From positions 3,404,501-3,468,500 of the forward strand of contig NZ_CP012154.1 in the NCBI RefSeq assembly GCF_001187785.1: a stretch of 64,000 nucleotides of DNA, given 5' to 3'. Below, one piece after another: positions 13,043-43,095 of the stretch (position 1 is its first letter; every line of letters begins with the position of its first letter). The position numbers and the translations under genes were made by a program. The notes below the pieces were generated by a model. The model ran no database searches. It was not told the DNA's origin and saw nothing but the letters and a program-made list of their open reading frames with translations. The DNA is from Wenzhouxiangella marina. GTDB lineage: Bacteria; Pseudomonadota; Gammaproteobacteria; Xanthomonadales; Wenzhouxiangellaceae.

Positions 13043-13059
13043 GGATCCGTCCGAACGAC

Positions 13060-27198: not shown

Positions 27199-27294
27199 AA
27201 ACACCAGGCTCGCCGAATGGGGAGACCAGATCGACCTGGCCGCACGCCCGAACAGGCCAATCAGACCCGCCCGCTGATCCTCGAACTGAAACCC

Positions 27295-27402: not shown

Positions 27403-27537
27403 ATGCCCAGCATACTCTGCTGGAATCTCTTCTCAAAGCTCCCCGCCCTAATGCGAATCAGCGCCCTGACTGCCCCGGTGGAAAGCGCCCGTAGAAAAAG
27501 ACATAATCGGAGACGGCGTAGTTTGGGGGTTGGCTCT

Positions 27538-28455
27538 GTGGCAAAGCGTTTCTACATCGGTGTGACCGATTCAAGGTGGTACCACTATCTGGCCGCCCAG
27601 CAGCCGGATGAAGTCAATTTCTGGATGCCCGGCGCCTCTGGGTTCCGTGCCCTACCCGAAGCCGGCCTGTTCTTGTTCAAGCTCAAGCACCCGCACAATG
27701 CCATCGTCGGCGGAGGCTTCTTCGTGCGCTATACCCGCCTGCCGCTGATGTTGGCCTGGGAGGCCTTCGGCCAGAAAAACGGCGTCGAGAGCCTGCCGCA
27801 GCTCCTGAAAATTCTGAGATCACTGCGGCCTGAGATTCACCCAGCTGACGAAATCGGTTGCTGCATTCTGGCCCAACCGTTTTTCTTCCCCAGAGAGAGC
27901 TGGATACCCACGCCGGCCGACTGGTCGAAAAATATCGTTCGCGGCAAGGGCTACGACAGCGATTCACTCGAAGGCGCAAAGCTCCTCGATGCCGTCCGCG
28001 AACGGATGCCAGTTGTCGGAGACACCGATGGCCTACTTGACCCCACTGGCGACCCTGAGCGGCCGCTCCGCATCATCCGCGGCCGGCTCGGCCAGGGCGC
28101 CTTCCGGTCCCTGGTCACCGATGCCTACACCCGGCGCTGCGCGATCTCCGGCGAGCGGACGCTGCCCGCGCTCGAAGCCGCCCACATCAAGCCCTATGCC
28201 GACTCCGGCCCCAACCGCACGGAAAACGGCCTATTGCTGCGCTCCGACCTGCATCGCTTGTTCGACGCGGGCTACGTCACGGTCACGCCCGAGCGCCGGA
28301 TCGAGGTTAGCGGACGGATCAAGGAAGAATTCGAGAATGGCCGCGATTACTACCGCTTCCATGGAGAAAAGCTGATGGTCGAACCAGGCAACCCGGCGGA
28401 AAGGCCCGATGCCGTCTACCTCAGCTGGCACAATGAGCGGGTATTCAGGCCGTGA
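27538..28455 (+). CDS. HNH endonuclease (second)
   Basis: A 305-aa HNH nuclease. The GTG start at 27538 (MAKRFYIGVTDSRWYHYLAA) has GGGGG about ten bases upstream. The N-terminal domain (FLFKLKHPHNAIVGGGFFVR) is a conserved module in a group of HNH proteins found near toxin-antitoxin and restriction genes. The HNH core is CAISGERTLPALEAAHIKPY, then ENGLLLRSDLHRLFDAGY. The Cys pairs of zinc-bound HNH enzymes are absent; this class does not need them. It is likely a phage- or methylation-directed DNA nuclease. It precedes hsdM by 72 bases on the same strand but has its own ribosome binding site. Confidence 0.87.
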   Translation: MAKRFYIGVTDSRWYHYLAAQQPDEVNFWMPGASGFRALPEAGLFLFKLKHPHNAIVGGGFFVRYTRLPLMLAWEAFGQKNGVESLPQLLKILRSLRPEIHPADEIGCCILAQPFFFPRESWIPTPADWSKNIVRGKGYDSDSLEGAKLLDAVRERMPVVGDTDGLLDPTGDPERPLRIIRGRLGQGAFRSLVTDAYTRRCAISGERTLPALEAAHIKPYADSGPNRTENGLLLRSDLHRLFDAGYVTVTPERRIEVSGRIKEEFENGRDYYRFHGEKLMVEPGNPAERPDAVYLSWHNERVFRP

Positions 28456-28527
28456 GGCGCTTCGATAGTTCGATCACCGAACAGTCTAGATGTGTTGCTA
28501 CATGAAAACGATAGGATCGAGAGTCTG

Positions 28528-30510
28528 ATGGAACAAGTCCAGCTCAACTGGATCACCAACTTCATCTGGGGCATCGCGGATGATGTGCTGCGCGACCTGT
28601 ACGTGCGCGGCAAATACCGCGACGTCATTCTGCCGATGACGGTGCTGCGGCGACTCGACGCCGTGCTGGAGCCGACCAAGCAGGCGGTGCTGGAGATGAA
28701 GGCCTCGCTCGACGAGGCCGGGATCGTTCAGCAGGATGCAGCCCTGCGCCAGGCCGCCGGGCAGGCCTTCTACAACACCTCGAAGTTCACGCTCCGGGAT
28801 CTTCGGTCGCGCGCCAGCCAGCAACAGCTTCGCGCCGATTTCGAGGCCTACCTTGATGGGTTCTCGCCAAACGTCCAGGACATCCTCGAAAACTTCGAAT
28901 TCCGCAACCAGATCCCGCGCCTGTCGAAGGCGGATGCGCTCGGCACGCTGATCGAGAAGTTCCTCTCGTCGGACATCAACCTTAGCCCGAATCCAGTCAT
29001 GAATGGGAACGGCTCGGTCAAGCAAGCCGCGCTCGACAATCATGCCATGGGCACCCTGTTCGAGGAACTCGTCCGCCGCTTCAACGAAGACAACAACGAA
29101 GAGGCCGGCGAGCACTGGACGCCGCGCGACGCTGTCAAGCTCATGGCCAAGCTGATCTTCCTGCCCATCGCCGACGAGATCCAGTCCGGCACCTACCTGC
29201 TCTATGACGGTGCCTGCGGCACCGGCGGTATGCTGACCGTCGCCGAGGAAACGCTACAGCAGCTTGCCGAAGACCACGGCAAGCAGGTCGCGACCCACCT
29301 TTTCGGCCAGGAAATCAACGCCGAGACCTACGCCATTTGCAAGGCCGACCTGCTGCTGAAGGGCGAAGGCGACGCGGCGGACAATATCATCGGCGGCCCC
29401 GAGCACTCGACACTCGCCAACGATGCCTTCCCGTCTCGCGAATTTGACTTCATGCTCTCCAATCCGCCCTACGGCAAGAGCTGGAAGTCAGACCTTGAGC
29501 GCATGGGCGGCAAGAAGGGTGTCAAGGACCCGCGTTTCCTCATCCAGCACGCGGGCGACCCGGAGTACTCACTGCTGACTCGCTCCAACGATGGCCAGAT
29601 GTTGTTCCTGGCTAACATGCTCGCGAAAATGAAGCAGGGCACGAAGATGGGCAGCCGCATCGCCGAGGTGCACAACGGTTCCTCTCTCTTCACCGGCGAC
29701 GCCGGCCAGGGCGAGAGCAACATCCGCCGCTGGATTATCGAGAACGACTGGCTCGAAGCGATCGTCGCCCTTCCGCTCAACATGTTCTACAACACCGGCA
29801 TCGCGACCTACATCTGGGTGCTCACCAACCGCAAGCCGGAACATCGAAAAGGGCAGGTCCAACTAATCGATGCAACCCAGTGGTACAAGCCGCTGCGCAA
29901 GAACTTAGGAAAAAAGAACTGCGAACTTTCCGAGCAGGACATCCAGCGCATCTGCGACGCCTTCCTCGCCTTCGAAGAAACCGTGCAGTCGAAGATCTTC
30001 CCGAACGAGGCCTTCGGGTACTGGAAAGTGACGGTCGAGCGGCCGCTCCGCCTGGCGGGCATCGATCCCGAGCGCGCCTACAAGGCGGCAGAAATCAAGA
30101 AACTCAAAGAGACCTGCGAACGGGTCGACGACGCCCCACCGGTCATCAAAAAGATCCACAAGAAGGGCACCGAGGCTGATCCCCTGCGCGGCCTGTTCGA
30201 GGCAACGATTGCCGGCAAGACCGCCGTGGTTGAATACGAGCCGGACACCGAATTGCGCGACACGGAACAGGTGCCATTGCTCGAAGAGGGCGGCATCGAA
30301 GCCTTTATCAAGCGCGAGGTATTGCCCCACGCGCCCGATGCCTGGTACGTCCCCGGCAGCGTCAAGACAGGCTACGAGATCAGCTTCACCCGCTACTTCT
30401 ACAAGCCGAAGCCGTTGCGCTCGCTGGAGGAGATTCGGGCTGACATTCTGGCGCTGGAGAAAGAGACCGAGGGGCTGCTGGGCGAGATCATCGGGGAGAA
30501 AGCGCCATGA
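28528..30510 (+). CDS. hsdM: type I restriction-modification methyltransferase subunit HsdM
   Basis: A 660-aa N6-adenine DNA methyltransferase, starting at ATG 28528 (MEQVQLNWITNFIWGIADDV) with GAGAG upstream. The N-terminal helical domain runs to about 180. The SAM-binding motif is DGACGTGGM at 227-235, and the adenine-specific motif NPPYG at 312-316. The C-terminal part (EIRADILALEKETEGLLGEI) is the usual coiled segment that contacts HsdS. It would protect host DNA at sites chosen by the HsdS gene downstream. It overlaps the next gene by ATGA, so the whole string of embedded genes is coupled to it. Confidence 0.95.
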   Translation: MEQVQLNWITNFIWGIADDVLRDLYVRGKYRDVILPMTVLRRLDAVLEPTKQAVLEMKASLDEAGIVQQDAALRQAAGQAFYNTSKFTLRDLRSRASQQQLRADFEAYLDGFSPNVQDILENFEFRNQIPRLSKADALGTLIEKFLSSDINLSPNPVMNGNGSVKQAALDNHAMGTLFEELVRRFNEDNNEEAGEHWTPRDAVKLMAKLIFLPIADEIQSGTYLLYDGACGTGGMLTVAEETLQQLAEDHGKQVATHLFGQEINAETYAICKADLLLKGEGDAADNIIGGPEHSTLANDAFPSREFDFMLSNPPYGKSWKSDLERMGGKKGVKDPRFLIQHAGDPEYSLLTRSNDGQMLFLANMLAKMKQGTKMGSRIAEVHNGSSLFTGDAGQGESNIRRWIIENDWLEAIVALPLNMFYNTGIATYIWVLTNRKPEHRKGQVQLIDATQWYKPLRKNLGKKNCELSEQDIQRICDAFLAFEETVQSKIFPNEAFGYWKVTVERPLRLAGIDPERAYKAAEIKKLKETCERVDDAPPVIKKIHKKGTEADPLRGLFEATIAGKTAVVEYEPDTELRDTEQVPLLEEGGIEAFIKREVLPHAPDAWYVPGSVKTGYEISFTRYFYKPKPLRSLEEIRADILALEKETEGLLGEIIGEKAP

Positions 30511-31940
30511 CAGTCGAGGAACTGAAGACATTGCTGGGGAGCGATGGCCAGATACTGAAGACGCGCGATGACCACTCACCTGTTCTCTTAAATCGCCCGT
30601 CGGACGCGACGGGAGTCGATCAGTTCACCGTGCCGACCGACTCGACGTGCTCATGGGCGAAGCCAGCCGAACCGTTCGGCGCCGAGATAATCCGGCCGCG
30701 AATCGAGCCGTGGCTGACGGCACTGGCTCAGTCCGAGCATCTTTCCCTGTTGGTCGGCTCGGGGTTGACCCACGCCGTCCATGGGATGGCCACGAATCAG
30801 CCCCTGCCCGGCATGGGCGCCGTCATTTTCGACGTCCTGAACGACGAAATCACGTCCGAGGCTAAGTGTGCGGCCAGCGCGGCCGGGCGCGAGGACGGAA
30901 ACTTCGAGGACCAGATCCGCGTCGCCAACGAAGTGCTTCGAGGTCTGGAGATCCTTGTAGCAAAGAAGCCAGCAGACGCACCTGAGCGACAACAAGCAGC
31001 GGCCCTGCGAGGTGGCCTGACGGCAGCCCTGCAATCATTCGCCGGCTCCATTCTTACGGGCGAACGAAACCTCGCGACGGCGGAAACCGAGCAGCGCGAA
31101 GAGGCGTTCAACTACCTCGTCAGCTTCCTGATGAGCTTTGCCAGCCGTGCCGGTACCCGCGAGCGCCTGCAGCTTTTCACGACAAACTACGACCGTTACA
31201 TCGAGGCGGGTGCAGATGTGGCTGGCTTGCGTCTCATCGATCGTTTCGTCGGCACCCTGGTGCCAGTCTTCCGCGCATCGCGCCTCGATGTGGATCTGCA
31301 CTACAACCCGCCGGGCATCCGCGGGGAACCGCGCTACCTCGAAGGCGTCGCGCGTTTCACCAAGCTCCACGGCTCGGTGGACTGGCTCGACTGCGCAGGT
31401 TCGATCCGGCGCATCGGCCTCCCTTTCGGCGCAATGGACGCGGCCCCCTATCTCGCCGCGCCTGGACTGAAGGGCGTCGATGCAACGCGGCTGATGATCT
31501 ACCCCAACGCCGCCAAGGATCGCGAAACGACGGCATACCCCTATATCGAACTCTTCCGCGACTTCGCCGCTTCAATCTGCCGCCCGAACAGCACGTTGGT
31601 CTGCTACGGCTACAGCTTCGGCGACGAACACATCAATCGCGTGATCGAGGACATGCTGACTATCCCGTCCGCGCACCTGGTCATTATTGCCCACGGCGAT
31701 CCGCTTGGGCGCATCATGAGCACGTACGAGCGTCTGGGTAGGCATGCGCAGATCACGCTATTGATCGGTAACCATCTCGGTAACCTGAAAGTCTTGGTCG
31801 ATCATTACCTGCCGAAGCCGGCAATCGACCGCACGACCTTCCGCATGGCGGAACTGCTCAAGGCGCGCTGGGGCACGGAGCCTCGCGCCCAAGCGGATGC
31901 CGAGGACGCGCCGACACAAGAAGGGAGTTCGCCGTCTTGA
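30507..31940 (+). CDS. SIR2-domain protein of a SIR2-HerA defence pair
   Basis: A 477-aa protein with a SIR2-like NAD-binding core. The N-terminal nucleotide motif is VGSGLT (83-88); FTTNYDRYIE contains Asn227, KLHGSVDW contains His288 (the expected catalytic base), and GYSFGD lies at 368-373. In antiphage SIR2 proteins these residues hydrolyse NAD+, killing the infected cell. The start overlaps hsdM by four bases (ATGA) and the stop overlaps herA (TTGA). The first 60 residues (MTVEELKTLLGSDGQILKTR) are an extra region before the core. SIR2 next to a HerA ATPase matches the SIR2-HerA (Nezha) system. That NAD is the substrate is by family. Confidence 0.87.
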   Translation: MTVEELKTLLGSDGQILKTRDDHSPVLLNRPSDATGVDQFTVPTDSTCSWAKPAEPFGAEIIRPRIEPWLTALAQSEHLSLLVGSGLTHAVHGMATNQPLPGMGAVIFDVLNDEITSEAKCAASAAGREDGNFEDQIRVANEVLRGLEILVAKKPADAPERQQAAALRGGLTAALQSFAGSILTGERNLATAETEQREEAFNYLVSFLMSFASRAGTRERLQLFTTNYDRYIEAGADVAGLRLIDRFVGTLVPVFRASRLDVDLHYNPPGIRGEPRYLEGVARFTKLHGSVDWLDCAGSIRRIGLPFGAMDAAPYLAAPGLKGVDATRLMIYPNAAKDRETTAYPYIELFRDFAASICRPNSTLVCYGYSFGDEHINRVIEDMLTIPSAHLVIIAHGDPLGRIMSTYERLGRHAQITLLIGNHLGNLKVLVDHYLPKPAIDRTTFRMAELLKARWGTEPRAQADAEDAPTQEGSSPS

Positions 31941-34039
31941 GCCAGGCACCCTTCGAGCAGGCCGGCAGTTTGCGCATCGGCGCGGTGGAATTCGTCTCGC
32001 CAGATGAAATCAAGGTGGGTCTCGATATCGAGGCACCCGAGTCCGTTGCCCTGAATGCCGGAGGCCCGCGGCCATTTCCCAGGGTCAACGGCTACCTGCT
32101 GATTCCAGTGGATGACGCTTTCCTCGTCGGCCAAGTCGAGTGGATGACCGTCGAGCGCTCACCCTTTCCGAAGCGGCGCGGCATGCAGGACTTCGGATTG
32201 GTGGATCTTCCCTATCCTCTTCGCAGATTGAGGCTCAACCCCCTCGGCACGCTTCGCAGGCGTTCGCCGGATGGCGCGTACGACTTCAGGCGCGGCGCCG
32301 ACGCCTTGCCATCGATTGGCGCAGCTGTCCTCCTGCCCACCGAAAAGCAACTCTGCTCCATCGTCGAGTCTGGAGAGCGTCGCAGGGTAAAGATCGGCAC
32401 GAGTCCGCTCGCAGGTGATGCGGAGGTATCTATCGATCCCAATCGCCTGTTCGGGCGGCACCTTGCCGTGTTGGGCAACACGGGTAGCGGCAAGTCCTGC
32501 TCCGTCGCCGGATTGATTCGCTGGAGCCTGGAACAGGCATCGCAGGCGCGAGGAGGAGGACGACCCAACGCCCGGTTTATTGTGCTTGACCCGAATGGCG
32601 AGTATGCACGCGCCTTCAGCGGCGCCGAAAAGATAAAGGCGCGAATCTTCAAGGTGAACCCGGCTGAAGGTGAAAAGGCTCTGAAAGTGCCGCTGTGGTT
32701 CTGGAACAGCGCGGAGTGGTGCTCGTTCACGCAGGCCAGCGCGCGGACGCAGCGGCCTACACTGATGCACGCCCTTCGCTTCGTTCGGGACGGCCAGACC
32801 GAGCCGACGCCTGATACAAGTCACGACATGCGACGGTTCCTTCGAACTATGGTGACGACCATTCGCATCGAGCAGAACTCCGGCGGACCATGGGGTGCGT
32901 TCCCAAAGCCGAAGGCGTTTTTCGAGAAGCTGGAGAAGTGGAAGTCGGGATTGGAGTCCGACTTGTCATCGTTCGCTGGTGACCCTCAAGCCCGACTCCA
33001 AGCGCTCGTCGCCAAGATCGAAGGGCTCTGTCAGCCGCGTCGCGTTCAATACCCCCACTATGACTTCACTAGGGATGAAGTCCGGGATCTGCTCGTGGCT
33101 GCTAGCGAGACTCATTCCGCATTCGGCGGGACAGATTCAGACATAGTTCCGGCAGATGTCGACGCACCGCGTCCATTCGAGGGCGCATCGCTGCTTCGAG
33201 CCGTCGAGGCGGCGGGAGAGCTGCTGAACGTCTCCGAGCACGTCGAAACGCTGCTCGTCAGGATCCGTGCGCTGCTGACGGACACCCGCTTGAAGCCGAT
33301 CATGGGAAGCGAACACGACGTGGCCTTGGACGAGTGGCTTTCGAGCTACATCGGCAGCGACGACACCGATGACGGTTGCATATCGGTAATTGACCTTTCA
33401 CTGGTGCCTACCGAAGTCATTCACGTCATCACCGCCGTCATCGCGCGCATTACGTTCGAGTCGCTACAACGCTACGTGAAGCTGAACGGTGTCGCGCTGC
33501 CCACCGTGCTGGTTATGGAAGAGGCCCACACCTTCATCAAGCGCTACAAGGAGGACGTCGAGAATCAGGACGCGGCCAGCATCTGCTGTCAGGTCTTCGA
33601 GCGCATCGCCCGTGAGGGCCGGAAGTTCGGCCTCGGCCTTGTCCTCTCGTCGCAGCGCCCATCCGAACTGTCGCCCACCGTGCTATCGCAGTGCAACACC
33701 TTCCTGCTCCACCGGATCAGCAACGACCGTGACCAGGAACTGGTCCACCGGCTCGTGCCGGACAACCTTCGCGGTCTCCTCCGCGAGCTGCCTTCGCTGC
33801 CATCCCAAAATGCCATCCTGCTCGGCTGGGCCTCGGAACTTCCGGTGCTGGTGAAGATGAACGAACTTCCAAAGTCCCAGCAGCCTCGGTCCGACGATCC
33901 AGAGTTCTGGGGTGTATGGATCGGCGAGGATGCAGATGGCAATCCGGTATCGCGGAGTTCGGACTGGGCTCCGATCGCTGATGACTGGCAGTCTGTTCCA
34001 GCAGGTCAACCGGAAGGCGACGGGGAGGCGGAGGCATGA
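31937..34039 (+). CDS. herA: HerA-type ATPase of the SIR2-HerA pair
   Basis: A 700-aa ATPase of the HerA/FtsK superfamily. It begins at a TTG (31937, overlapping the SIR2 stop), with AAGGGAG about 11 bases upstream. An N-terminal HAS-barrel-like region (residues about 10-120) precedes Walker A GNTGSGKS (180-187). Walker B is VLVMEEAHTF with Glu528/Glu529, followed by an Arg-finger region EGRKFGLGLVLSSQRPSEL. It would form a hexamer and move DNA or control the SIR2 partner. In the known SIR2-HerA system the two form a large complex. This copy seems to carry an insertion of about 150 residues between the two Walker motifs. Confidence 0.9.
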   Translation: MSQAPFEQAGSLRIGAVEFVSPDEIKVGLDIEAPESVALNAGGPRPFPRVNGYLLIPVDDAFLVGQVEWMTVERSPFPKRRGMQDFGLVDLPYPLRRLRLNPLGTLRRRSPDGAYDFRRGADALPSIGAAVLLPTEKQLCSIVESGERRRVKIGTSPLAGDAEVSIDPNRLFGRHLAVLGNTGSGKSCSVAGLIRWSLEQASQARGGGRPNARFIVLDPNGEYARAFSGAEKIKARIFKVNPAEGEKALKVPLWFWNSAEWCSFTQASARTQRPTLMHALRFVRDGQTEPTPDTSHDMRRFLRTMVTTIRIEQNSGGPWGAFPKPKAFFEKLEKWKSGLESDLSSFAGDPQARLQALVAKIEGLCQPRRVQYPHYDFTRDEVRDLLVAASETHSAFGGTDSDIVPADVDAPRPFEGASLLRAVEAAGELLNVSEHVETLLVRIRALLTDTRLKPIMGSEHDVALDEWLSSYIGSDDTDDGCISVIDLSLVPTEVIHVITAVIARITFESLQRYVKLNGVALPTVLVMEEAHTFIKRYKEDVENQDAASICCQVFERIAREGRKFGLGLVLSSQRPSELSPTVLSQCNTFLLHRISNDRDQELVHRLVPDNLRGLLRELPSLPSQNAILLGWASELPVLVKMNELPKSQQPRSDDPEFWGVWIGEDADGNPVSRSSDWAPIADDWQSVPAGQPEGDGEAEA

Positions 34040-34095
34040 TCATCGACCTCAATCACCCCCACCTTGTGTGGCTTGAGAGAGGAGTCGGTCCATGA
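34036..34095 (+). CDS. 19-codon coupling ORF
   Basis: A tiny frame MIIDLNHPHLVWLERGVGP starts on the A of the herA stop (ATGA) and ends with TGA inside the ATGA of the next gene. It contains the ribosome binding site of that gene (GAGGAG, 34079-34084 region). Both overlaps are exact. It may be only a translational link, or a real micro-peptide; nothing else in it identifies a function. Confidence 0.5.
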   Translation: MIIDLNHPHLVWLERGVGP

Positions 34096-35135
34096 ACGAA
34101 CGAACGGCGCTGCTCGCGTCCATTGCGGAGACGATCAAAGACTACCGGTCGGGTGAATTACCCCCTCCCACACCTGAACACGTTGATCGTTGGATCCAGC
34201 AATTCGACAGAGAAGTTCAACTCCAAATGCTGCGGGAGATGGATTATGTACTCAAGCAAACATACTTTTCGCTCGCGAACGTTACGAACTTCCTGCGAGA
34301 CCTAGTCCGGACTGAAAAGCTCGTCGGCCAAGATCCTTGCGCTTTTTGGCGCACCGTGAACTTCCTTGATATCCAGCAAGGTGGGAACAGCCAGACCGAA
34401 ATGTTAGAGCTGTTTGACAAAGTGCTTCAAGAACAATGTGGATTCAGGGTTACCGAGTGCGGGGTCGAAAGCGCTGTCTATCTCTACCTGGACGACGGAC
34501 TCTTCACCGGTAACCGTGTTCGGCGAGATCTGGAAGCGTGGATAGCAACCGACTCGCCTGCCGCGGCCTCGTTGCACGTCGTGACCATTGCCCTCCACTC
34601 GGGCGGTCAGCACTACGCCAATGGGAGGATTAGGAACGCGCTCACAGCAACGCGCAAGGAATGCGCCATAACGTGGTGGCGAGCGATCGAGCTCGAGGAT
34701 CGGAAGGCATACAGCGACACTGCCGACGTTCTGCGACCGACGAGCATTCCCGACGACGCGGCCGTGCAGGACTACGTTAGAGGGATGAGACATCCGCCAA
34801 CCCTTAGGCGGCCTGGGAATGTTGGTGGCAAGTCTCTGTTCAGTAGTGATGCAGGGAAGCAGCTGCTCGAGCAGGAATTTCTGAAGGCGGGCGCACGAAT
34901 TCGCGGTCTCTGCCAAAATCTGGGCGACACACAGCGACCTCTAGGTCACATGACCCTGGAGACCCTCGGATTCGGATCTCTCATCGTTACGTTCCGAAAT
35001 TGCCCGAACAATGCGCCTTTGGCGCTTTGGGTTGGTGATCCGTGGTACCCGCTGTTCCGGCGAACCACAAACAGCCAGACGGCCATCAAGCACTTGTTTG
35101 AGGACCTGACAAGAGATGCGGGCGATGAGCGCTGA
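34092..35135 (+). CDS. PRTase-CE-like phosphoribosyltransferase
   Basis: A 347-aa protein I assign to the conflict-system phosphoribosyltransferase group (PRTase-CE). The PRPP-binding signature is YLYLDDGLFTGNRV, with Asp134-Asp135 and Thr139-Gly140; upstream FWRTVNFLDIQQGGNSQTEM fits the fold and downstream HVVTIALHSGGQHYANGRI completes it. The N-terminal 80 residues are helical and the C-terminal part ends in NAPLALWVGDPWYPLFRR. It would use PRPP-like or nucleotide substrates; the reaction is unknown. It is embedded between herA and a NADAR-HsdS gene with overlaps on both sides. The family call is from memory of motifs; I could not test it. Confidence 0.65.
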   Translation: MNERTALLASIAETIKDYRSGELPPPTPEHVDRWIQQFDREVQLQMLREMDYVLKQTYFSLANVTNFLRDLVRTEKLVGQDPCAFWRTVNFLDIQQGGNSQTEMLELFDKVLQEQCGFRVTECGVESAVYLYLDDGLFTGNRVRRDLEAWIATDSPAAASLHVVTIALHSGGQHYANGRIRNALTATRKECAITWWRAIELEDRKAYSDTADVLRPTSIPDDAAVQDYVRGMRHPPTLRRPGNVGGKSLFSSDAGKQLLEQEFLKAGARIRGLCQNLGDTQRPLGHMTLETLGFGSLIVTFRNCPNNAPLALWVGDPWYPLFRRTTNSQTAIKHLFEDLTRDAGDER

Positions 35136-37308
35136 CCAGACACGCACTTATCGCCGGGAAGAATGCATCGTCTTCCTGAAGACCGACGAACCGTTCGGTG
35201 GGCTGTCCAATATGGCTGGCGGGTTCCCGTTGTGCGTGAATGGTCTTGAAATCCGCACATCCGAGGCGCTCTACCAGGCCTGTCGCTTTCCGCATCTGCC
35301 CGAAGTGCAGAAGCTGATCATCGTGCAGAAGAGCCCGATGACGGCCAAGATGAAGAGCAAGCCGCATCGCAAGCACTCCCGACCGGACTGGGACCGGGTG
35401 CGGGTCAAGATCATGCGCTGGTGTTTGCGGGTAAAGCTCGCGCAGAACTGGGCAACGTTCAGCACGCTTCTGCAGGAGACAGGAGACCGCCCGATCGTCG
35501 AAGAGTCGCGCAAGGACGCGTTCTGGGGCGCGAAGCCGGTAGACGCTGACACGCTCGTCGGCATGAATGTGCTGGGGCGGTTGCTCATGGAATTGAGGGC
35601 TGCGATTGAAGGCGAGGGGCGGGAAGCGCTCCTTAAGGTGGACAGTCTCGATATCCCAGGCTTCCGGCTGGCGGGGCACCCGATTGAAACGGTCATCGCG
35701 GAAAACCCAGCGATGGCGCCGACCGAACCGCTTGACCAGAGCCCGCGCCCTGGTGAAGCGAGTTCGCCAAGGGAGTATCAGCCATCCCTGTTCGATTCGC
35801 CCAAGGGTCCGGACACAATGGTCCGCGATTCAGCGGCGGAGCAGCACGCAAGGGCGGGTATCGCCAGCCTCAAGCCCTATCCCGCGTTGAAAGACTCCGG
35901 CGTGCCGTGGCTGGGGGAGGTGCCGGAGCATTGGGAGGTGCGTAAGCTTCGTCATGTCCTTCGGCGCCGTACGGAGCGAAATCGGCCCGACCTTCCCCTG
36001 CTTTCGGTTGTTCGTGAGAAGGGCGTGATACGGCGGGATACGACGAGTGCCGATGAGAACCACAACTACATTCCCGACGATCTGACCAACTATAAGGTCG
36101 TGCGACCAGGGCAGTTTGCCATGAACAAGATGAAGGCTTGGCAAGGATCGTACGGCGTATCCCGATACGATGGAATCGTCAGCCCGGCCTACTTCGTATT
36201 CGATTTATGGGGCGTAGATGGCAACTTCTTCCACGCTGCAATCCGCTCCCGCGCATATGTACCCCAATTTACGCGGGCATCTGATGGCGTGCGCATCGGT
36301 CAGTGGGACTTAGCGGAGTCGCGGATGCGGGAGATCCCGTTCCTTGTCCCGCCTCTCCCAGAACAAGCAGCTATCGTCCGCTTCCTCGATCACGCAGACC
36401 GGCGGATTCGGCGGTACGTCCGCGCCAAGCAGAAGTTGATCAAGCTGCTGGAGGAGCAGAAGCAGGCCATCATCCACCGCGCCGTCACCCGCGGGCTCGA
36501 CCCCAACGTCCGCCTCAAGCCCTCCGGCGTGGAGTGGGTGGGGGAGGTGCCGGCGCATTGGGAAGTATTGCGCCTGAAATCACTGATTTCCAGACTAGAC
36601 CAAGGAGTAAGCCCTCAAGCAGAGAATCGTGTTGCAGAAGCGGGCTCTTGGGGTGTATTGAAAGCAGGCTGCGTAAATCGAGGCGTATTCCGTGAGAAGG
36701 AACATAAGCGGCTACCGGAAGGCTTCATATTCGACGAAAAACTTGCCATCTCGGAAGGTGACGTACTTGTCTCGAGGGCAAGCGGTTCGCCCCACCTGGT
36801 TGGATCAGTCGGCCGTGTAGCGGAACTGACATCCAACTTGATTCTCTCTGACAAGATTTTTCGGCCTGTATTTGTACCGAATGCTAGACCAGAGTACATG
36901 GTGCTGGCCATGAACAGCCGCTACTATCGACTTCAAGTTGAGCAAGCGATTAGCGGTGCTGAGGGTCTTGCGAATAATTTGCCCTCTTCATCGCTTCGTA
37001 GGTTTGTGTTTGCCGTTCCACCCGTTAAGGAGCAGCTTGACATTGCAGAGTCGCTGCGTTCCGCTATTGACGACGTTAGTGCGACTGTGGAACGATCCGA
37101 AAGAGAGATCGAGCTGCTCAACGAATTCCGCACTCGCCTGTTTGCTGACGCCGTAACGGGCAAGTTAGACGTGCGGGAGGCGGCGGCGAAGCTTCCGGAT
37201 TTGGAGGAAAATCCGGGGATGGCCGAGCCGTTAGATGAGCTGGCTGCTGGCGAGGCCGCGGAGTTCGATGACGAGTTGGACGTGGAAGCGGAGGAGGCCG
37301 GGGCGTGA
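35116..37308 (+). CDS. hsdS: NADAR domain fused to type I specificity subunit HsdS
   Basis: A 730-aa fusion. Residues about 15-175 are a NADAR (YbiA-like) domain: FGGLSNMAGGFPLCVNGLEI, RTSEALYQACRF, SPMTAKMKSKPHRKHS and KDAFWGAK match YbiA motif by motif, ending NVLGRLLMELR. After a linker (PSLFDSPKGPDTM) comes HsdS, with two target-recognition repeats opening PWLGEVPEHWEVRKL (about 262) and EWVGEVPAHWEVLRL (about 475), each followed by a coiled spacer. HsdS gives the DNA sequence; NADAR acts on ADP-ribose-type linkages. The frame is unbroken. An internal ATG at 35818 has AAGGG ten bases upstream, so separate HsdS could also be made. The start is 35116 or 35125; both overlap the PRTase gene. 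Confidence 0.88.
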   Translation: MRAMSADQTRTYRREECIVFLKTDEPFGGLSNMAGGFPLCVNGLEIRTSEALYQACRFPHLPEVQKLIIVQKSPMTAKMKSKPHRKHSRPDWDRVRVKIMRWCLRVKLAQNWATFSTLLQETGDRPIVEESRKDAFWGAKPVDADTLVGMNVLGRLLMELRAAIEGEGREALLKVDSLDIPGFRLAGHPIETVIAENPAMAPTEPLDQSPRPGEASSPREYQPSLFDSPKGPDTMVRDSAAEQHARAGIASLKPYPALKDSGVPWLGEVPEHWEVRKLRHVLRRRTERNRPDLPLLSVVREKGVIRRDTTSADENHNYIPDDLTNYKVVRPGQFAMNKMKAWQGSYGVSRYDGIVSPAYFVFDLWGVDGNFFHAAIRSRAYVPQFTRASDGVRIGQWDLAESRMREIPFLVPPLPEQAAIVRFLDHADRRIRRYVRAKQKLIKLLEEQKQAIIHRAVTRGLDPNVRLKPSGVEWVGEVPAHWEVLRLKSLISRLDQGVSPQAENRVAEAGSWGVLKAGCVNRGVFREKEHKRLPEGFIFDEKLAISEGDVLVSRASGSPHLVGSVGRVAELTSNLILSDKIFRPVFVPNARPEYMVLAMNSRYYRLQVEQAISGAEGLANNLPSSSLRRFVFAVPPVKEQLDIAESLRSAIDDVSATVERSEREIELLNEFRTRLFADAVTGKLDVREAAAKLPDLEENPGMAEPLDELAAGEAAEFDDELDVEAEEAGA

Positions 37309-38771
37309 CCGGCGACCGGCCTTCCGAATATCTCGCGAGCTTGATTCGGGAGCTCTGTGCTCTGCCGCGCGAAACGGAGTGGGCCGAGTTCAAGGTCAAC
37401 GACGCAGAACCCCAAGCCATTGGCGAGTACATCTCGGCACTCGCGAATGCGGCCGCCCTGGCCGGCAAGGCCTTCGCCTATCTCGTCTGGGGTGTGCGCG
37501 ATGACGATCATGCGGTCGTGGGCACGACCTTCGATCCGAGCGCAGCGAAGGTCGGTAATGAGGAGCTGGAGAATTGGCTCTTGCGCACCATGGAGCCCAA
37601 GATCGACTTCCGGTTCCTGCGTGTCGACCTGGACGGCGCGCCGGTCGTGCTCCTCGAAATCACTCGAGCCGCGCGTCATCCGGTGCGCTTTTCCGGTCAG
37701 GAGTTCATCCGCGTTGGTTCCTACAAAAAGAAGCTCAAGGATTTCCCCGAGAAGGAACGGGCGTTGTGGCGCATTTTCGACCAGACGCCGTTCGAAGACG
37801 GTATCGCCGCTGAGCGGGCGACGGGCAACGAGGTCCTGAGGCTGCTGGATTACCCGGCCTACTTCGAGCTGCTCGAACGGTCGTTACCAGCGAATCGGGA
37901 CGGGATCCTGGAGGCCCTGGCCGATGATCGGCTAGTCCGTGGCAGCGACGCCGGCGGATGGGACATCACCAACCTTGGTGCTGTGCTGTTCGCCAAGCGA
38001 CTCGATGGCTTTCATACGCTGCGTCGCAAAGCCGTGCGCGTTGTGCAATATCGCGGCAACGGCCGCACCGAGACGCTCAGAGAGCAGGAAGGTGGCAAAG
38101 GTTACGCCAGCGGCTTTGAGGGCCTGATCGGCTACATCAATGGCCTACTGCCCGCGAACGAGGTCATCGGCAAGGCGCTGCGCCGGAGCGTGCCGATGTT
38201 CCCCGAGCTGGCAGTGCGCGAGTTGGTGGCCAACGCTCTCATCCACCAAGACTTTCTCGTGGCCGGGGCGGGCCCGATGGTGGAGATCTTCGACGATCGG
38301 ATCGAGATCACGAATCCCGGCGAGCCGCTCGTCGACACCCAGCGTTTTGTGGACACGCCGCCGCGCTCGCGCAACGAGGCCCTTGCCTCGCTGATGCGCC
38401 GGTTCCGGATCTGCGAGGAACGCGGCAGCGGTATCGACAAGGTCGTCTCCCAGGTGGAGCTGTTCCAGCTGCCCGCGCCCCTGTTCGAGAGCCCGAAAGG
38501 CTTTACGCGGGCGGTTCTGTTCGCGCACAAGCCTCTGACGGCGATGGATCGAATGGACCGTGTGAGGGCCTGCTATCTCCATGCCTGCCTGAAATGGGTG
38601 ACGCGGGACTATCTGACCAATGCGTCCCTCAGAGAGCGGTTTGGCGTAGAAGAGAAGAACAAAGCCGCCGTCTCGCGTTACATCCGAGAGGCAGTCGAAT
38701 CCGGCATGATCAGGCCATTCGATGAGGGCGCGGCCAAAAAACTGATGAAATATGTCCCGTTTTGGGCGTGA
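37305..38771 (+). CDS. AlbA_2 / GHKL ATP-binding protein
   Basis: A 488-aa protein of the COG2865 type. The N-terminal AlbA_2 domain begins ETEWAEFKVNDAEPQAIGEY and includes FSGQEFIRVGSYKKKLKDFP. The C-terminal GHKL ATPase-like domain has the N-box in ELVANALIHQDFLV, the FDDRIEITNPGEP box and the G-box in ERGSGIDKVV, then a helix-turn-helix at the end (REAVESGMIRPFDEGA). Such proteins often sit beside type I restriction genes as regulators or accessory factors; function is unproven. Start GTG 37305 overlaps the HsdS stop (GTGA), so it belongs to the same unit. It ends 112 bases before hsdR. Confidence 0.8.
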   Translation: MTGDRPSEYLASLIRELCALPRETEWAEFKVNDAEPQAIGEYISALANAAALAGKAFAYLVWGVRDDDHAVVGTTFDPSAAKVGNEELENWLLRTMEPKIDFRFLRVDLDGAPVVLLEITRAARHPVRFSGQEFIRVGSYKKKLKDFPEKERALWRIFDQTPFEDGIAAERATGNEVLRLLDYPAYFELLERSLPANRDGILEALADDRLVRGSDAGGWDITNLGAVLFAKRLDGFHTLRRKAVRVVQYRGNGRTETLREQEGGKGYASGFEGLIGYINGLLPANEVIGKALRRSVPMFPELAVRELVANALIHQDFLVAGAGPMVEIFDDRIEITNPGEPLVDTQRFVDTPPRSRNEALASLMRRFRICEERGSGIDKVVSQVELFQLPAPLFESPKGFTRAVLFAHKPLTAMDRMDRVRACYLHACLKWVTRDYLTNASLRERFGVEEKNKAAVSRYIREAVESGMIRPFDEGAAKKLMKYVPFWA

Positions 38772-38883
38772 TTTTTGATTGATGGACGCTTGAATTAAGA
38801 CTTGCCAGATGCGCTTTTTTTATAAATATTTTTTCGAAACAGTATCTTACAGCTCCGAGTTTAATTGATGGGTAATTGATTCA
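38772..38883 (+). promoter_or_regulatory. AT-rich gap before hsdR
   Basis: 112 bases, clearly richer in A and T than anything near it (TTTTTTATAAATATTTTTTC at about 38815-38834). This is the only real gap in the restriction locus, so hsdR probably has its own promoter here. A TTGCCA lies at 38802 and TATAAA at 38821, but the spacing of 13 is not standard, so I do not fix the elements. Confidence 0.4.
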
Positions 38884-41800
38884 ATGCCGCCGACAACCAC
38901 GGACACCAGCGAACGCGGGCTCGAACAGCTGGTCTGCACGGCCCTGACCGGCTCGCCCTGCGACCCGGGGGCGGAACCCCAGGGCCCTACTCGGGAGCGG
39001 CCAGCCGCTTACGCGGCCGGCTGGATCGGCGGGCATCCGAACGACTACGACCGAGAGCACTGCGTGGACCTGGTGCAGCTTGCGGATTTTCTGCAAGAGA
39101 CCCAGCCGGAGGTCGCAGAGGCGCTGAGCCTGGGGGTCGACGGACCGACCCGGCGCAAGTTCCTGGCGCGCCTGCAGGGCGAAATTACCAGGCGCGGGAC
39201 GATCGACGTGCTGCGTCGTGGCATCAAGCACGGCCCGAACGATATCGATCTTTTCTACGGCACGCCGTCACCCGGGAATGAGACGGCCGCCGTTCGCTAC
39301 GCCGCCAACCGCTTCAGCGTCACCCGCCAGCTTCGTTACAGCCGCGACGAAACCCAGCTTGCGCTGGATCTCGGCCTGTTCATCAATGGTCTTCCCGTGG
39401 CCACTTTCGAGCTGAAAAACAGCCTGACCAAGCAGACAGTGGACGATGCCGTCGAGCAGTACAAGCGCGATCGCAGCCCGCGCGAAAAGCTGTTCGAGTT
39501 TGGCCGCTGCGTTGCGCACTTTGCCGTTGACGATCATGAGGTCCGATTCTGCACGCATTTGAAGGGCAAGAACTCGTGGTTCCTGCCCTTCAATCAGGGC
39601 TGGGGTCACGGCGCCGGCAATCCGCCGAATCCGAATGGCCTGAAGACCGACTATCTCTGGAACCGCATACTGACCCGCGACAGTCTGACGGACATTCTCG
39701 AAAACTACGCCCAGGTCGTCGAATTCAAGGACGAGAAGACCGGCCGCAAGAAGGCCACGCAGATCTGGCCGCGCTTTCACCAGCTCGATGTCGTGCGCCG
39801 GCTTCTGGCGGATGCCGGCGAGCGCGGCGCAGGGCACCGTTACCTGATTCAGCATTCGGCCGGTAGCGGCAAGTCGAATTCCATCGCCTGGCTCGCTCAC
39901 CAGCTCATTGGACTGTCCAGAGACGATTCGATGGTGTTCGACTCCATTATCGTGGTCACGGACCGACGCATTCTCGACAAGCAGATCCGCGACACGATCA
40001 AGCAGTTTGCGCAGGTAGGTGCGACAGTCGGGCACGCCGAACGCTCCGGCGATCTGCGCAAGTTCATCGCCGAGGGCAAGAAGATCATCATCTCGACGGT
40101 GCAGAAGTTTTCGTTCATTCTCGACGAGATCGGCAACGAGCATCGCGGCCGGCGCTTCGCGATCATCATTGACGAGGCCCATTCAAGCCAAGGTGGGCGC
40201 ACTTCGGCAGCGCTCTCCGTCGCGCTATCCGGTACCGGTGACGGGGAAGACGATGAGACCCTCGAAGACAGCATCAATCGCCTGATGGAGGCCAAGAAGC
40301 TGCTGCCGAACGCGAGCTATTTTGCCTTCACAGCCACGCCGAAGAACAAGACGCTAGAGATTTTCGGCAAACCTGAGCCGCAATCCGACGGCAGCGTGCG
40401 GCACCGCCCGTTTCACAGCTATACGATGAAGCAGGCGATCGAGGAAGGCTTCATCCTGGACGTGTTGCGCCACTACACCCCAGTGGAGAGCTACTACCGG
40501 CTGGTCAAGAAGGTCGAGGGCGATCCGAAGTTTGACACCAAGCGGGCCAAGAAGAAGCTGCGCCGCTACGTCGAGAGCCATGACCATGCCATTCGCCTGA
40601 AAGCTGAGATCATGGTGGACCACTTCCATGAGCAGGTGATCGGGCTTAACAAGATCGGCGGAAAGGCCCGGGCGATGGTGGTGACCAGCGGCATCGAGCG
40701 AGCCATCCAGTATTTCCACGCCATCCGCGATTACCTCGCCGACCGCAAGAGCCCCTATCAGGCCATCGTGGCCTTCTCCGGGGAGCATGAATATGGCGGC
40801 ACGAAAGTCACCGAGGCGTCGCTTAACGGATTCCCAGCCAGCCAGATCGCCGACAAGATCGAACAGGACCCCTACCGATTCCTGATCTGCGCGGACAAGT
40901 TCCAGACCGGTTACGACGAGCCGCTGTTGCACACGATGTACGTGGACAAGGTTCTCTCGGGCATCAAAGCGGTGCAGACCCTCTCCCGCCTGAACCGAGC
41001 GCATCCGCAGAAGCACGACGTGTTCGTGCTCGACTTCATGAACGACGCCGACACGATCAAGGCCTCATTCGCCGACTACTACCGCACCACCATCCTGGCC
41101 GAAGAGACCGATCCGGATAAGCTGCATGACCTGAAGGCGGCGCTTGACGGAGCCCAGGTTTACACGGCAGAGAAAATCGATGAGCTCGTCACGTTGTATC
41201 TTGGCGGCGCGGACCGGGACTGTCTCGATCTGATTCTCGATGCCTGCGTCGCAGACTATCGGGAACAGCTCGACGAGGATGGCCAGGTCGACTTCAAGGG
41301 CAAGGCCAAGGCGTTCCTGCGAGCCTATGGCTTCCTGTCCCAGGTCCTGCCTTACACGAACGCTGATTGGGAGAAGCTCTCGATCTTTCTGACTTTCCTC
41401 GTTCCGAAGCTACCGGCGCCGGTCGAGGAGGATCTCTCTCGCGGCATCCTGGACGCCATCGACATGGACAGCTACCGGGTCGAGAAGCAGACCGCCATCC
41501 GCATCCAGCTCCCGGACGCCGACGCCGAAATCGAGCCGTTGCCGACAAGCGGCGGCGGCCGCAGGCCCGAACCGGAACTCGATCGCCTCTCCAACATCAT
41601 CAAGACCTTCAACGACCAGTTCGGGAACATCGCCTGGAGCGACGCGGATCGCGTGCACAGGCTGATCACCGAGGACATTCCGAGTCGAGTCGCTGCCGAT
41701 GAAGCCTACCGCAACGCGAAGCTGAACTCGGACAAGCAGAACGCCCGCATCGAGCACGACAAGGCCCTGGCGCGGGTGATGACTGCCGTACTAAAAGACG

Positions 41801-41898
41801 ACACGGAACTGTTCAAGCAGTTCATGGACAATGACTCTTTCCGCCGCTGGATGACGGACACGGTGTTTGGATTGACTTACGAATCAGCGAGAAGCTAG
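38884..41898 (+). CDS. hsdR: type I restriction endonuclease subunit HsdR
   Basis: A 1004-aa restriction subunit. The PD-(D/E)xK nuclease lies in the N-terminal third: Asp162 in ALDLGLFINGLP and Glu176-x-Lys178 in FELKNSL. The motor domain has Walker A SAGSGKS (325-331) and DEAH at 430-433 (IIIDEAHSS), followed by SF2 motifs such as YFAFTATPKNKTLEIF and ADKFQTGYDEPLLHTM. The final 250 residues contact HsdM. It translocates and cuts unmodified DNA with HsdM2S. All the key residues are present, so it should be active. It is separated from the rest by an AT-rich gap. Its stop overlaps by four bases the stop of the convergent nucleotidyltransferase gene. Confidence 0.95.
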   Translation: MPPTTTDTSERGLEQLVCTALTGSPCDPGAEPQGPTRERPAAYAAGWIGGHPNDYDREHCVDLVQLADFLQETQPEVAEALSLGVDGPTRRKFLARLQGEITRRGTIDVLRRGIKHGPNDIDLFYGTPSPGNETAAVRYAANRFSVTRQLRYSRDETQLALDLGLFINGLPVATFELKNSLTKQTVDDAVEQYKRDRSPREKLFEFGRCVAHFAVDDHEVRFCTHLKGKNSWFLPFNQGWGHGAGNPPNPNGLKTDYLWNRILTRDSLTDILENYAQVVEFKDEKTGRKKATQIWPRFHQLDVVRRLLADAGERGAGHRYLIQHSAGSGKSNSIAWLAHQLIGLSRDDSMVFDSIIVVTDRRILDKQIRDTIKQFAQVGATVGHAERSGDLRKFIAEGKKIIISTVQKFSFILDEIGNEHRGRRFAIIIDEAHSSQGGRTSAALSVALSGTGDGEDDETLEDSINRLMEAKKLLPNASYFAFTATPKNKTLEIFGKPEPQSDGSVRHRPFHSYTMKQAIEEGFILDVLRHYTPVESYYRLVKKVEGDPKFDTKRAKKKLRRYVESHDHAIRLKAEIMVDHFHEQVIGLNKIGGKARAMVVTSGIERAIQYFHAIRDYLADRKSPYQAIVAFSGEHEYGGTKVTEASLNGFPASQIADKIEQDPYRFLICADKFQTGYDEPLLHTMYVDKVLSGIKAVQTLSRLNRAHPQKHDVFVLDFMNDADTIKASFADYYRTTILAEETDPDKLHDLKAALDGAQVYTAEKIDELVTLYLGGADRDCLDLILDACVADYREQLDEDGQVDFKGKAKAFLRAYGFLSQVLPYTNADWEKLSIFLTFLVPKLPAPVEEDLSRGILDAIDMDSYRVEKQTAIRIQLPDADAEIEPLPTSGGGRRPEPELDRLSNIIKTFNDQFGNIAWSDADRVHRLITEDIPSRVAADEAYRNAKLNSDKQNARIEHDKALARVMTAVLKDDTELFKQFMDNDSFRRWMTDTVFGLTYESARS

Positions 41899-42395
41899 AA
41901 CACGCAGGTAAGCGCCTCGACATCCTGCAGTCGTCTGATCAAGGTTGCCTGATCCAATAGCCCTGCACGGATCAGGGCTGCGTTGAACTCGAGGTCCTTC
42001 GGCCGGCCCGCACCGTACTTCGATAACGCCAGGTCATGTACCTCCATGCAAAGCCCGGTGAACTTGCCAGCCTTGACCGGATTGGCTCTCTGCATCCAGT
42101 CCTTCGGCGCGTACTGCGGTGTACTGCTCGACAGACCTTGGGCGTAGTAGTGGTTCTCGATCTCGAAGTCGGAACCTTCGCCAAGCACCCAATCGATCCG
42201 ATCGCTGACCCGACGCTCCTCCTCTGGATCATCCAGGCCTGGCACGACATCCATATCACGCGTCTGGACCAGCGCTGCTTCGGCTGAGTCTTCGATGACA
42301 GCCAGAACGGCCGAAGCGCCGATGATGTAGAAGTACTCGAGGCCAGTTCGTCTGCCGACCTCCGCAATCAAGTGCTCGAGTTGATCACGAGTCAC
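41895..42395 (-). CDS. DUF6036-type nucleotidyltransferase, likely toxin
   Basis: A 166-aa nucleotidyltransferase-fold protein from a GTG start at 42395. It has YIIGASAVLAVIEDSAEAA, then LVQTRDMDVVPGLDD, which supplies the D-x-D of the nucleotidyltransferase active site, and a C-terminal DLALSKYGAGRPKDLEFNAA segment typical of DUF6036. The start overlaps the stop of the winged-helix gene (GTGA), so they form a pair arranged like a toxin-antitoxin unit. Related minimal nucleotidyltransferases modify tRNA and block translation. Whether this one is toxic is inference. It converges with hsdR, the two stops overlapping. Confidence 0.78.
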   Translation of the reverse strand: MTRDQLEHLIAEVGRRTGLEYFYIIGASAVLAVIEDSAEAALVQTRDMDVVPGLDDPEEERRVSDRIDWVLGEGSDFEIENHYYAQGLSSSTPQYAPKDWMQRANPVKAGKFTGLCMEVHDLALSKYGAGRPKDLEFNAALIRAGLLDQATLIRRLQDVEALTCVF

Positions 42396-42901: not shown

Positions 42902-42912
42902 CGCTCGACATG

Positions 42913-42934
42913 TGAATAGATACTGAATAGATAA
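42913..42934 (-). repeat. 11-bp direct repeat, likely operator
   Basis: Read on the minus strand, TTATCTATTCA is followed at once by GTATCTATTCA. The pair lies 12 bases upstream of the winged-helix gene start, overlapping its -10 region, and fits a binding site for that protein. Confidence 0.6.
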
Positions 42935-42959
42935 TAGGAGCCTTCGATCCCGTAGACAA
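42931..42959 (-). promoter_or_regulatory. promoter of the winged-helix/nucleotidyltransferase pair
   Basis: On the minus strand: -35 TTGTCT (42959-42954), 17-base spacer, -10 TATTAT (42936-42931). It overlaps the direct repeats, so occupancy of the repeats would stop transcription. Confidence 0.55.
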
Positions 42960-43095
42960 GGCCCAGGTACGCTCAACCGACGGCCTGCCCACCTTGGAGC
43001 CATGAGCAGCGGCTGTCCCATGAGCGACCGTAGCGCGAGGAACGGGGATGACACAGCGTCCCCGGCCTCCAGAAACAGGACAGAGGTGCAGCGCC

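Follow-up and report, generated by a model that had tools for sequence, protein, structure and literature searches.

A type I restriction operon of Wenzhouxiangella marina carrying a DS32-type PRTase and a NADAR-HsdS fusion

We analyzed a stretch of 64,000 nt from Wenzhouxiangella marina (NZ_CP012154.1, positions 3,404,501-3,468,500 of the forward strand; this whole stretch is called the window, and coordinates are window positions), in which a type I restriction operon carries additional genes between hsdM and hsdR. These encode a SIR2 protein, a HerA ATPase, a phosphoribosyltransferase (PRTase), a NADAR domain fused to the specificity subunit HsdS, and an AlbA_2/GHKL protein. The locus raises the question whether these genes work as one system, and what a PRTase and a NADAR domain might do within a restriction operon. 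The first-pass annotation had read them as a single circuit of nicotinamide adenine dinucleotide (NAD) and ADP-ribose with SIR2-HerA as a back-up arm. From comparison with related loci we are confident that the locus is instead a mosaic, consisting of a type I chassis, a DS32 pair, SIR2-HerA and an optional AlbA_2/GHKL insert. The element that goes beyond chance is the linkage of PRTase and NADAR, and what is new is the setting of this known pair, inside a type I operon and joined through its NADAR to HsdS.

The PRTase-NADAR pair and its linkage

The PRTase gene (34092-35135, + strand) encodes a PRTase-CE protein (Pfam, 201 bits, cut-off 27) that matches the NCBIfam family DS32_1_antiphage (NF053875) with 428.8 bits (cut-off 250). 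Directly downstream lies an open reading frame (ORF; 35116-37308, +) in which NADAR (Pfam, 84.3 bits, cut-off 35.1) is joined to a type I specificity subunit (PADLOC Specificity_I, 352 bits); this fusion matches DS32_2_antiphage (NF053876) with 281.1 bits (cut-off 240). The two genes overlap by 20 nt, assuming that the first ATG is used. The NADAR domain is N-terminal (35116-35700, +; Pfam and NCBIfam), followed by the HsdS part at 35866-37308 (+; residues 251-691 by PADLOC Specificity_I, E 9.3e-106; Pfam Methylase_S). In the interpretation developed below the PRTase is the predicted writer and NADAR the predicted eraser of a mark on bases. The free-standing two-protein form is not that of the window, and the NCBIfam families cover both forms.

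The linkage was followed in 84 PRTase loci, namely the best 80 of 159 genome_contigs relatives, loci L009-L011 and the window. The 80 loci were drawn by patterns from four NADAR-adjoining PRTases, and the sample is biased towards NADAR-linked loci. A NADAR gene lies downstream of the PRTase in 83 of the 84; in the exception (L071) the contig stops 84 nt past the PRTase. Type I context was called by tblastn with the window proteins, and loci were termed solo when the strand of the PRTase showed neither an hsd nor a DUF1156 match. The sample then divides into 38 type I loci, 37 solo loci, four loci with NADAR on a DUF1156 methylase, two in which NADAR is truncated by the contig end, two with a longer NADAR (L054, L089), and L071. 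On one side, several contigs of solo loci end early (e.g., L047, L063, L091), and the solo locus L076 has weak HsdM and HsdR matches on the opposite strand. In L089 the NADAR comes after a second PRTase copy; this locus (9995-13730) holds a tandem PRTase pair and then one longer NADAR protein. The PRTase and NADAR genes overlap or adjoin in many loci, in a toxin-antitoxin-like order.

A sample of 279 genomes of the phylum, unbiased for PRTase-NADAR linkage, yielded three genomes only. Proteins over the DS32_1 cut-off and proteins over the DS32_2 cut-off occur in the identical three genomes (two of them from one genus) and are adjacent there, and 27 other genomes have weaker NADARs only. Within the class, the PRTase was found in 4 of 369 genomes, window included. 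A NADAR-domain search of 340 class genomes gave matches in 19, four at 64-100% identity and 15 at ≤35%; the four at 64-100% sit in the four PRTase-bearing genomes. On IMG/VR contigs, some of which duplicate genome_contigs loci, NADAR adjoins the PRTase in 33/33 loci, with PRTase identity down to 25-30%. PRTase and NADAR are almost certainly an obligate pair. In a PRTase tree, calculated without L038, type I context changed at least six times on starred branches and ten times by parsimony, and because these changes recur across several phyla we regard the pair as a mobile unit. No PRTase match was found among INPHARED phage records, and three were found in PLSDB, each below 60% identity.

Two distant PRTase-CE loci (L012, L013) have no match to the window NADAR and no NADAR among five genes scanned in each, so that NADAR coupling seems restricted to this PRTase subfamily. 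In L012 (9014-11555), from a genome of the same order, a reverse transcriptase gene lies shortly downstream of the PRTase-CE gene, possibly as a separate system linked to reverse transcriptase. The PRTase-CE of L013 lies beside an ORC-CDC6-like protein, a PfkB gene and a weak HAD match.

RefSeq applies the DS32 anti-phage names in some E. coli genomes. The available sections of the DefensePredictor paper (PMC13092281) describe 42 validated systems named DS-n, use 'PRTase' in a figure legend and mention NADAR domains, and judging by the name, the DS32 of NCBI is probably the DS-32 of DefensePredictor. Among 5426 E. coli genomes, 63 were matched when one allele was searched in distant mode and 62 when another allele was searched in near mode. 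NADAR is named beneath 24 of the 25 distant-mode matches listed (25 of 63), the other one being L198. This locus (3572-4742) is an E. coli prophage in which the PRTase gene is shortened beside IS1 and NADAR is lost. In six of six regions viewed, which come from related prophages and are non-independent, the pair or its remnant lies directly downstream of the lambdoid-prophage replication gene P. A broken MT-A70 methyltransferase gene was seen between P and the PRTase in L180 (7276-7860) and L199 (2776-3360). The E. coli pairs resemble the window in gene order, in the NADAR residues E, R, E and N and in the PRTase residues D, D and G. They differ in consisting of two free proteins in lambdoid prophages (broken in L198), whereas in the window a type I operon encloses the pair and NADAR forms the N-terminal part of the HsdS protein. 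No stated mechanism for a PRTase-NADAR pair was found in the accessible portions of the literature, and no literature on PRTase-CE by name among open-licence papers.

Cargo of the type I operon and the SIR2-HerA cassette

The type I chassis was compared at 19 places of the class sample with an HsdM identity of ≥68%, of which 13 were readable from hsdM to hsdR. Among the unread places, the hsdR match is broken in G212, contigs are short in G234 and G341, and G130 has no HsdS or HsdR match; G247 and G115 complete them. G280 (HsdM 53%) lies outside the count. PRTase-NADAR is present in three of the 13 operons and SIR2-HerA in two, both occurring together in one, the window. Cargo slots lie between hsdM and hsdS or between hsdS and hsdR. 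In relatives they hold GmrSD nucleases, Abi_2 with Hypoth_Ymh (L183), YhcG (L187), a helix-turn-helix (HTH)/IrrE protein (L191), AAA proteins (L044, L185), a PLD-like protein that narrowly misses the Pfam cut-off (L010) and AlbA_2 (L045). Across the type I PRTase loci, AlbA_2 was found in 2/38 (the best segment of the L045 copy has 72% identity) and GmrSD (c4) in 14/38 by tblastn; the gap in L056 measures ~0.5 kb and can therefore hold a fragment at most. The hsd operon is a carrier with interchangeable cargo. Even if base marking should prove false, the type I operon stands out as a multi-slot carrier with at least eight kinds of inserted genes, mostly from defence or toxin-antitoxin families. 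PRTase-NADAR is special among the cargo because its NADAR is fused to HsdS.

Three further observations concern this cargo. DarT-DarG pairs, with a macrodomain, occupy the hsdS-hsdR slot of this chassis in L049 (13223-14939) and L188 (4604-6312). In L022 (8163-9959) and its relatives, mostly alphaproteobacteria, the PRTase is directly preceded by a protein cluster whose members are all 598 aa long (14 loci; Pfam assigns GmrSD_N in L022). In four loci, a different GmrSD-like family is encoded upstream of hsdM.

The SIR2 protein of the window (30507-31940, +; Pfam SIR2_2; PADLOC SIR2, E 3.6e-155; PDB 8j4u chain, E 2.1e-20) contains the motifs TNYD and LHGS, both aligned to 8j4u. Its partner HerA (31937-34039, +; Pfam DUF87; PADLOC HerA, E 3.4e-250) has the Walker A motif GNTGSGKS. 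Adjacent SIR2 and HerA genes with these motifs are what the window shares with the SIR2-HerA anti-phage pair. It differs from that pair in staying under the NCBIfam equivalog cut-offs (SIR2_antiphage, 123 vs 500 bits; HerA_antiphage, 217 vs 850 bits) and in being embedded in a type I operon, like L176. HerA matches were obtained in 30 of 340 class genomes, and the two closest relatives (66% and 55%) are L176 and L177. L176 is an operon of overlapping genes, hsdM-SIR2-HerA-hsdS-hsdR, that lacks PRTase and NADAR; L177 is a SIR2-HerA pair without an hsd match. The window is the only one of the 38 type I PRTase-NADAR loci with SIR2-HerA; the other 37 gave no SIR2 or HerA match. SIR2-HerA is an independent cassette, since it is missing from these 37 loci and present in L176 without PRTase and NADAR. 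Predicted from its family, it would be a second, independent effector that depletes NAD.

The integrated NAD circuit with its SIR2-HerA back-up arm was therefore rejected, as SIR2-HerA and PRTase-NADAR occur apart. Co-occurrence was observed for PRTase and NADAR; with SIR2-HerA the full combination was seen in the window only. The PRTase-NADAR pair is already an anti-phage entry in NCBIfam, which was beyond the reach of the first-pass annotation. As to random mixing with other restriction loci, SIR2-HerA does mix, largely freely, and AlbA_2 is present in two of the 38 loci, whereas the PRTase-NADAR pair does not mix in this way.

The same data bear on the possibility that the hsd operon is a mere insertion site in which PRTase-NADAR, SIR2-HerA and AlbA_2 act without the restriction complex. 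Such passive stacking agrees with the slots of relatives, which hold GmrSD, DarT-DarG, Abi_2, YhcG, HTH/IrrE, AAA or PLD-like genes, with the separate occurrence of SIR2-HerA and PRTase-NADAR, and with the existence of solo pairs and of an anti-phage name for the pair by itself. It is nevertheless rather unlikely: NADAR and HsdS matches lie in one ORF in 38/38 type I loci, which goes beyond neighbourhood, and a second, different NADAR fusion exists on DUF1156 methylases.

Active sites, fusions and a possible base mark

The PRTase contains the motif YLYLDDGLFTG (34479-34511, +; residues 130-140), which resembles the loop binding phosphoribosyl pyrophosphate (PRPP). Its residues D134, D135 and G140 are present in 84/84 loci and R142 in 81/84. 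The AF2 model has a predicted local distance difference test score (pLDDT) of 93, and its best PDB folds in Foldseek are type I PRTases (uracil, orotate, hypoxanthine-guanine), matched weakly (best E 3.6e-3).

NADAR residues E50, R57 and E129 are kept in 82/82 members and in 35/35 of a second set; in an alignment with YbiA, E129 falls on its glutamate and R57 on its lysine. Ten-residue blocks of the NADAR domain mostly have a pLDDT of 85-95 in the fusion model. The match to NCBIfam TIGR02464 is under its cut-off. A control set of other NADARs began with 47 loci; 11 had no blast match and five were DS32 members, leaving 31 counted (L100 and L212 have an identical NADAR, and L112 is a doubtful match). 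The position of R57 is occupied in 29 of these, by K in 25, R in three and L in one. R57 was abandoned as a unique marker, the 9/9 K of a first control having been weakened by the three R-bearing NADARs of the larger one.

In terms of the classes defined in the accessible text of PMC11125620, the window NADAR is by its residues of the YbiA type and not of the DarT1-linked type. The DarT1-NADAR system (DarTG1) is similar in pairing a gene for a ribosyl-adding enzyme with a NADAR gene. It differs in that the window has a PRTase instead of an ADP-ribosyltransferase, Glu129 in place of the BC4488-type Asp, and Arg57 in place of the catalytic Lys. By analogy, the proposed window pair would use PRPP in place of NAD. 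A role of NADAR as a DarT1-type antitoxin was rejected on these residues and on the PRTase-CE partner. The NAD/ADP-ribose theme suggested earlier for the locus is not borne out either: the PRTase has a PRPP-type loop and NADAR belongs to the other class.

The riboflavin intermediates on which NADARs act are phosphoribosyl-amino compounds. The accessible text of PMC9503650 describes NADARs as ribosyl N-glycosidases on riboflavin intermediates, and the bond that a PRTase would form on a base amine would, by analogy, be of the kind that NADARs break. NADARs also remove guanine-linked ADP-ribose in DNA and RNA, according to the available sections of three papers (PMC11543638, PMC11125620, PMC11833690).

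In each of the 38 type I loci, a single ORF contains both the NADAR and the HsdS match. In 4/84 loci (L037, L050, L053, L062; tblastn) NADAR is instead fused to a DUF1156 methylase, and Pfam confirms this for L037 (NADAR 95 bits, DUF1156 76 bits). In these four NADAR is N-terminal and the locus contains an SNF2-type helicase match, and three have a DUF499 match as well. They thereby resemble the BREX-related DUF1156/DUF499 systems treated in the accessible part of PMC12839542, whose main text lacks the word NADAR; the window itself differs in being type I. Neither NADAR-HsdS nor NADAR-DUF1156 fusions were found described in the searched text of open-licence papers, and the hsdS mention found in the available text of PMC11543638 is a strain list. 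Because NADAR is joined to DNA-modification subunits in two separate fusions, its substrate is pointed towards DNA, and we lean towards an action of NADAR on DNA. The type I and DUF1156 versions can be seen as natural experiments on the NADAR substrate.

In the model of the window fusion, the HsdS part shows two mixed domains and two long helices, and the linker 197-247 is predicted to be disordered (pLDDT <50). Within this linker lies a candidate sliding-clamp-binding motif, QPSLF (35779-35793, +; residues 222-226). The classical clamp motif is QL[S/D]LF, with the natural forms QLGLF, QLNLF and QADMF in the accessible text of PMC3716654 and PMC13254535. Tails were compared in a non-redundant set of 60, compiled like the tree without L038; L072 was left out of its solo subset, and L054, L072, L089 and L118 belong to none of the three subsets. 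The pattern Q..[LM]F occurs in 22/60 tails (shuffle mean 0.37, maximum 4), and Q..[LM]F or Q.[LM].[LM]F in 25/60 (shuffle mean 0.39, maximum 3). The 25 motif tails comprise 14/17 HsdS-fused, 11/35 solo and 0/4 DUF1156-fused tails; in 10 of the 11 solo tails the motif lies ≤2 residues from the C-terminus. A wider set that includes Q..LL and L.LWG-like ends covers 35/60. Among control tails the motif was found in 1/49 PRTase tails and 0/31 other NADARs. Docking of the NADAR tail on the sliding clamp is a possible reading of this motif, which we make tentatively; the tail could bind the PRTase instead.

The intact PRPP loop, the clade-fixed Arg, the fusions to modification subunits and the candidate clamp motif together led us to a base-marking reading. 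In it, the PRTase would transfer a phosphoribosyl group derived from PRPP to an exocyclic amine on the bases of a nucleic acid, DNA being the most likely one, and NADAR, a member of a family that cleaves exocyclic N-ribosyl bonds, would remove it. The mark would be harmful where it persists. NADAR would clean self DNA through its tie, either a clamp-binding-like tail or the fusion to a self-DNA modification subunit (HsdS or the DUF1156 methylase). Marked DNA would remain in an invader, or in a cell in which a phage anti-restriction protein has put the restriction complex out of action. PrrC is a guard effector embedded in type I restriction loci. The window would resemble it in tying an extra effector to the restriction complex: a phage protein that disables the complex would also disable the eraser and free the writer, as a PrrC-like back-up. 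The differences are that the window has no anticodon nuclease and that its accessory enzyme is fused to HsdS rather than being a separate protein. A lambdoid prophage replicates with the host clamp, and a clamp rule would spare its DNA too.

These parts differ in strength. Base marking by the PRTase with PRPP is plausible but provisional. The full scheme, in which PRPP writes a reversible phosphoribosyl mark on DNA as an immune weapon, the eraser rides on the clamp or a modification subunit, and self is told from non-self by the machinery that serves the DNA, is doubtful. The best explanation as a whole, a mosaic with a DS32 writer-eraser pair, is one that we would not quite call probable. The fusions, the clade-fixed Arg and the tail motif nevertheless give it a specific, testable form, PRPP-dependent base marking with a targeted eraser, and if true it would mean a new cofactor and a new self/non-self discrimination in bacterial immunity.

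Several observations weigh against it. Foldseek gave no PDB match for the PRTase at E ≤ 0.001, and its acceptor specificity is therefore unreadable from the fold. Of 34 readable rows from viral contigs and E. coli, 21 have K at residue 142 and 13 have R; the K142 rows are E. coli and distant viral-contig forms. R57 is non-exclusive, R also being found in 3/29 other NADARs, and in the accessible text of PMC11543638 the equivalent lysine of a DarT1-linked NADAR is needed for rescue, its K-to-R mutant keeping activity in vitro and losing rescue. The tail patterns were defined after the tails had been viewed, the wider set most so, and the shuffle is no blind test; in most control NADARs hardly any tail is present. 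The motif of five or six letters is missing from 35/60 tails (24/35 solo, 3/17 HsdS-fused, 4/4 DUF1156-fused). P, G or S is common at its second place, the motif is non-canonical in most members, and QPSLF fits Q..[LM]F and misfits the revised clamp consensus with an aliphatic second residue. This revised consensus fits 5/60 tails (shuffle mean 0.78, maximum 5) and, not exceeding the shuffle maximum, the strict motif form was dropped. The divergence of PRTase and NADAR correlates weakly over 34 type I loci (Spearman 0.28, compared with 0.82 for HsdM-HsdR and 0.55 for NADAR-HsdM), so the two are not tightly co-adapted, and mirror-tree co-evolution was discarded as an argument. The single occurrence of the combination with SIR2-HerA may be chance. 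Finally, the term 'DS-32' is absent from the main text of the DefensePredictor paper (PMC13092281).

Alternatively, the PRTase could make a phosphoribosyl nucleotide upon infection as a diffusible signal, with NADAR as the off switch and SIR2-HerA or another neighbour as effector. PRTases normally use small-molecule substrates. The available text of PMC7824862 proposes PRTases as signal makers in Ter systems, and that of PMC9503650 has NADARs acting on small riboflavin intermediates. Against this, 37/84 loci have no hsd or DUF1156 partner, neighbour clustering finds no shared third gene, and SIR2-HerA is present in only 1/38 type I loci. Around solo loci we saw an SNF2-type helicase near L065, L075 and L077 and common flanks in L055, L058 and L059. 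A hydrolase of a soluble signal would also not be expected to be fused to HsdS or a methylase, as NADAR is, and we consider a diffusible signal unlikely.

A metabolic effector, by which the PRTase drains PRPP or modifies free bases and so halts nucleotide synthesis while NADAR reverses or limits the damage, is in our view quite unlikely. It would suit the intact PRPP loop and the toxin-antitoxin-like order, in which the genes of many loci overlap or adjoin, but leaves both the fusions of NADAR to modification subunits and the recurrent tail peptide unexplained. That NADAR-HsdS strips bases of ADP-ribose or of other marks that phages make and that block restriction, with the PRTase as an accessory, would fit the reversal of guanine ADP-ribosylation on DNA by NADARs (accessible text of PMC11543638) and is very unlikely, as NADARs that exceed the DS32_2 cut-off or have ≥64% identity were seen only in PRTase-bearing genomes and R57 replaces the lysine usual elsewhere in NADARs.

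Gene order and surroundings of the operon

The gene content and order from hsdM to hsdR proposed by the first-pass annotation were confirmed by Pfam, PADLOC and motifs in agreement, and its view of an anti-phage-like locus with accessory defence genes in a type I operon and NADAR joined to HsdS is supported. The operon begins with hsdM (28492-30510, +; Pfam N6_Mtase and HsdM_N; PADLOC MTase_I, 811 bits; NPPY at residue 324), for which ATG 28528, codon 13 of the listed ORF, is the likely start. It ends with hsdR (38884-41898, +; Pfam HSDR_N, SWI2_SNF2 and ResIII; GSGKS and DEAH motifs). All hallmarks of a type I system are present: HsdM with NPP[FYW], HsdS, and HsdR with an N-terminal nuclease domain and motor. 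By sequence inspection, the motifs expected of active enzymes were found in HsdM, SIR2, HerA, PRTase and HsdR.

Between HerA and the PRTase lies a 19-codon ORF (34036-34095, +; from sequence), which overlaps the HerA stop and the PRTase start by 4 nt each and probably has a role in translational coupling. Overlaps of 4 nt also join hsdM to SIR2, SIR2 to HerA, and NADAR-HsdS to the gene of the SLFN_AlbA_2 and HATPase_c_4 protein (AlbA_2/GHKL; 37305-38771, +; Pfam), the optional cargo. All junctions from hsdM to AlbA_2 do overlap, as had been noted, if the 19-codon ORF is counted; a gap of 112 nt separates the AlbA_2 gene from hsdR.

Just upstream of the operon we found an AbiEi_2 regulator and an AbiEii-like nucleotidyltransferase (25308-27198, +), a type IV toxin-antitoxin pair. 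It is flanked by two proteins with an HNH_2 endonuclease domain (27217-28455, +, which PADLOC HNH models match too, and 23998-25065, -). The Abi pair and the HNH_2 gene upstream give the surroundings the look of a defence island. Convergent with hsdR lie a DUF6036 nucleotidyltransferase-like gene and an overlapping MarR/IclR-like HTH gene (41895-43150, -), possibly another toxin-antitoxin unit, and the HTH gene is in turn overlapped by a gene for a DUF6933 domain protein (43096-44064, -).

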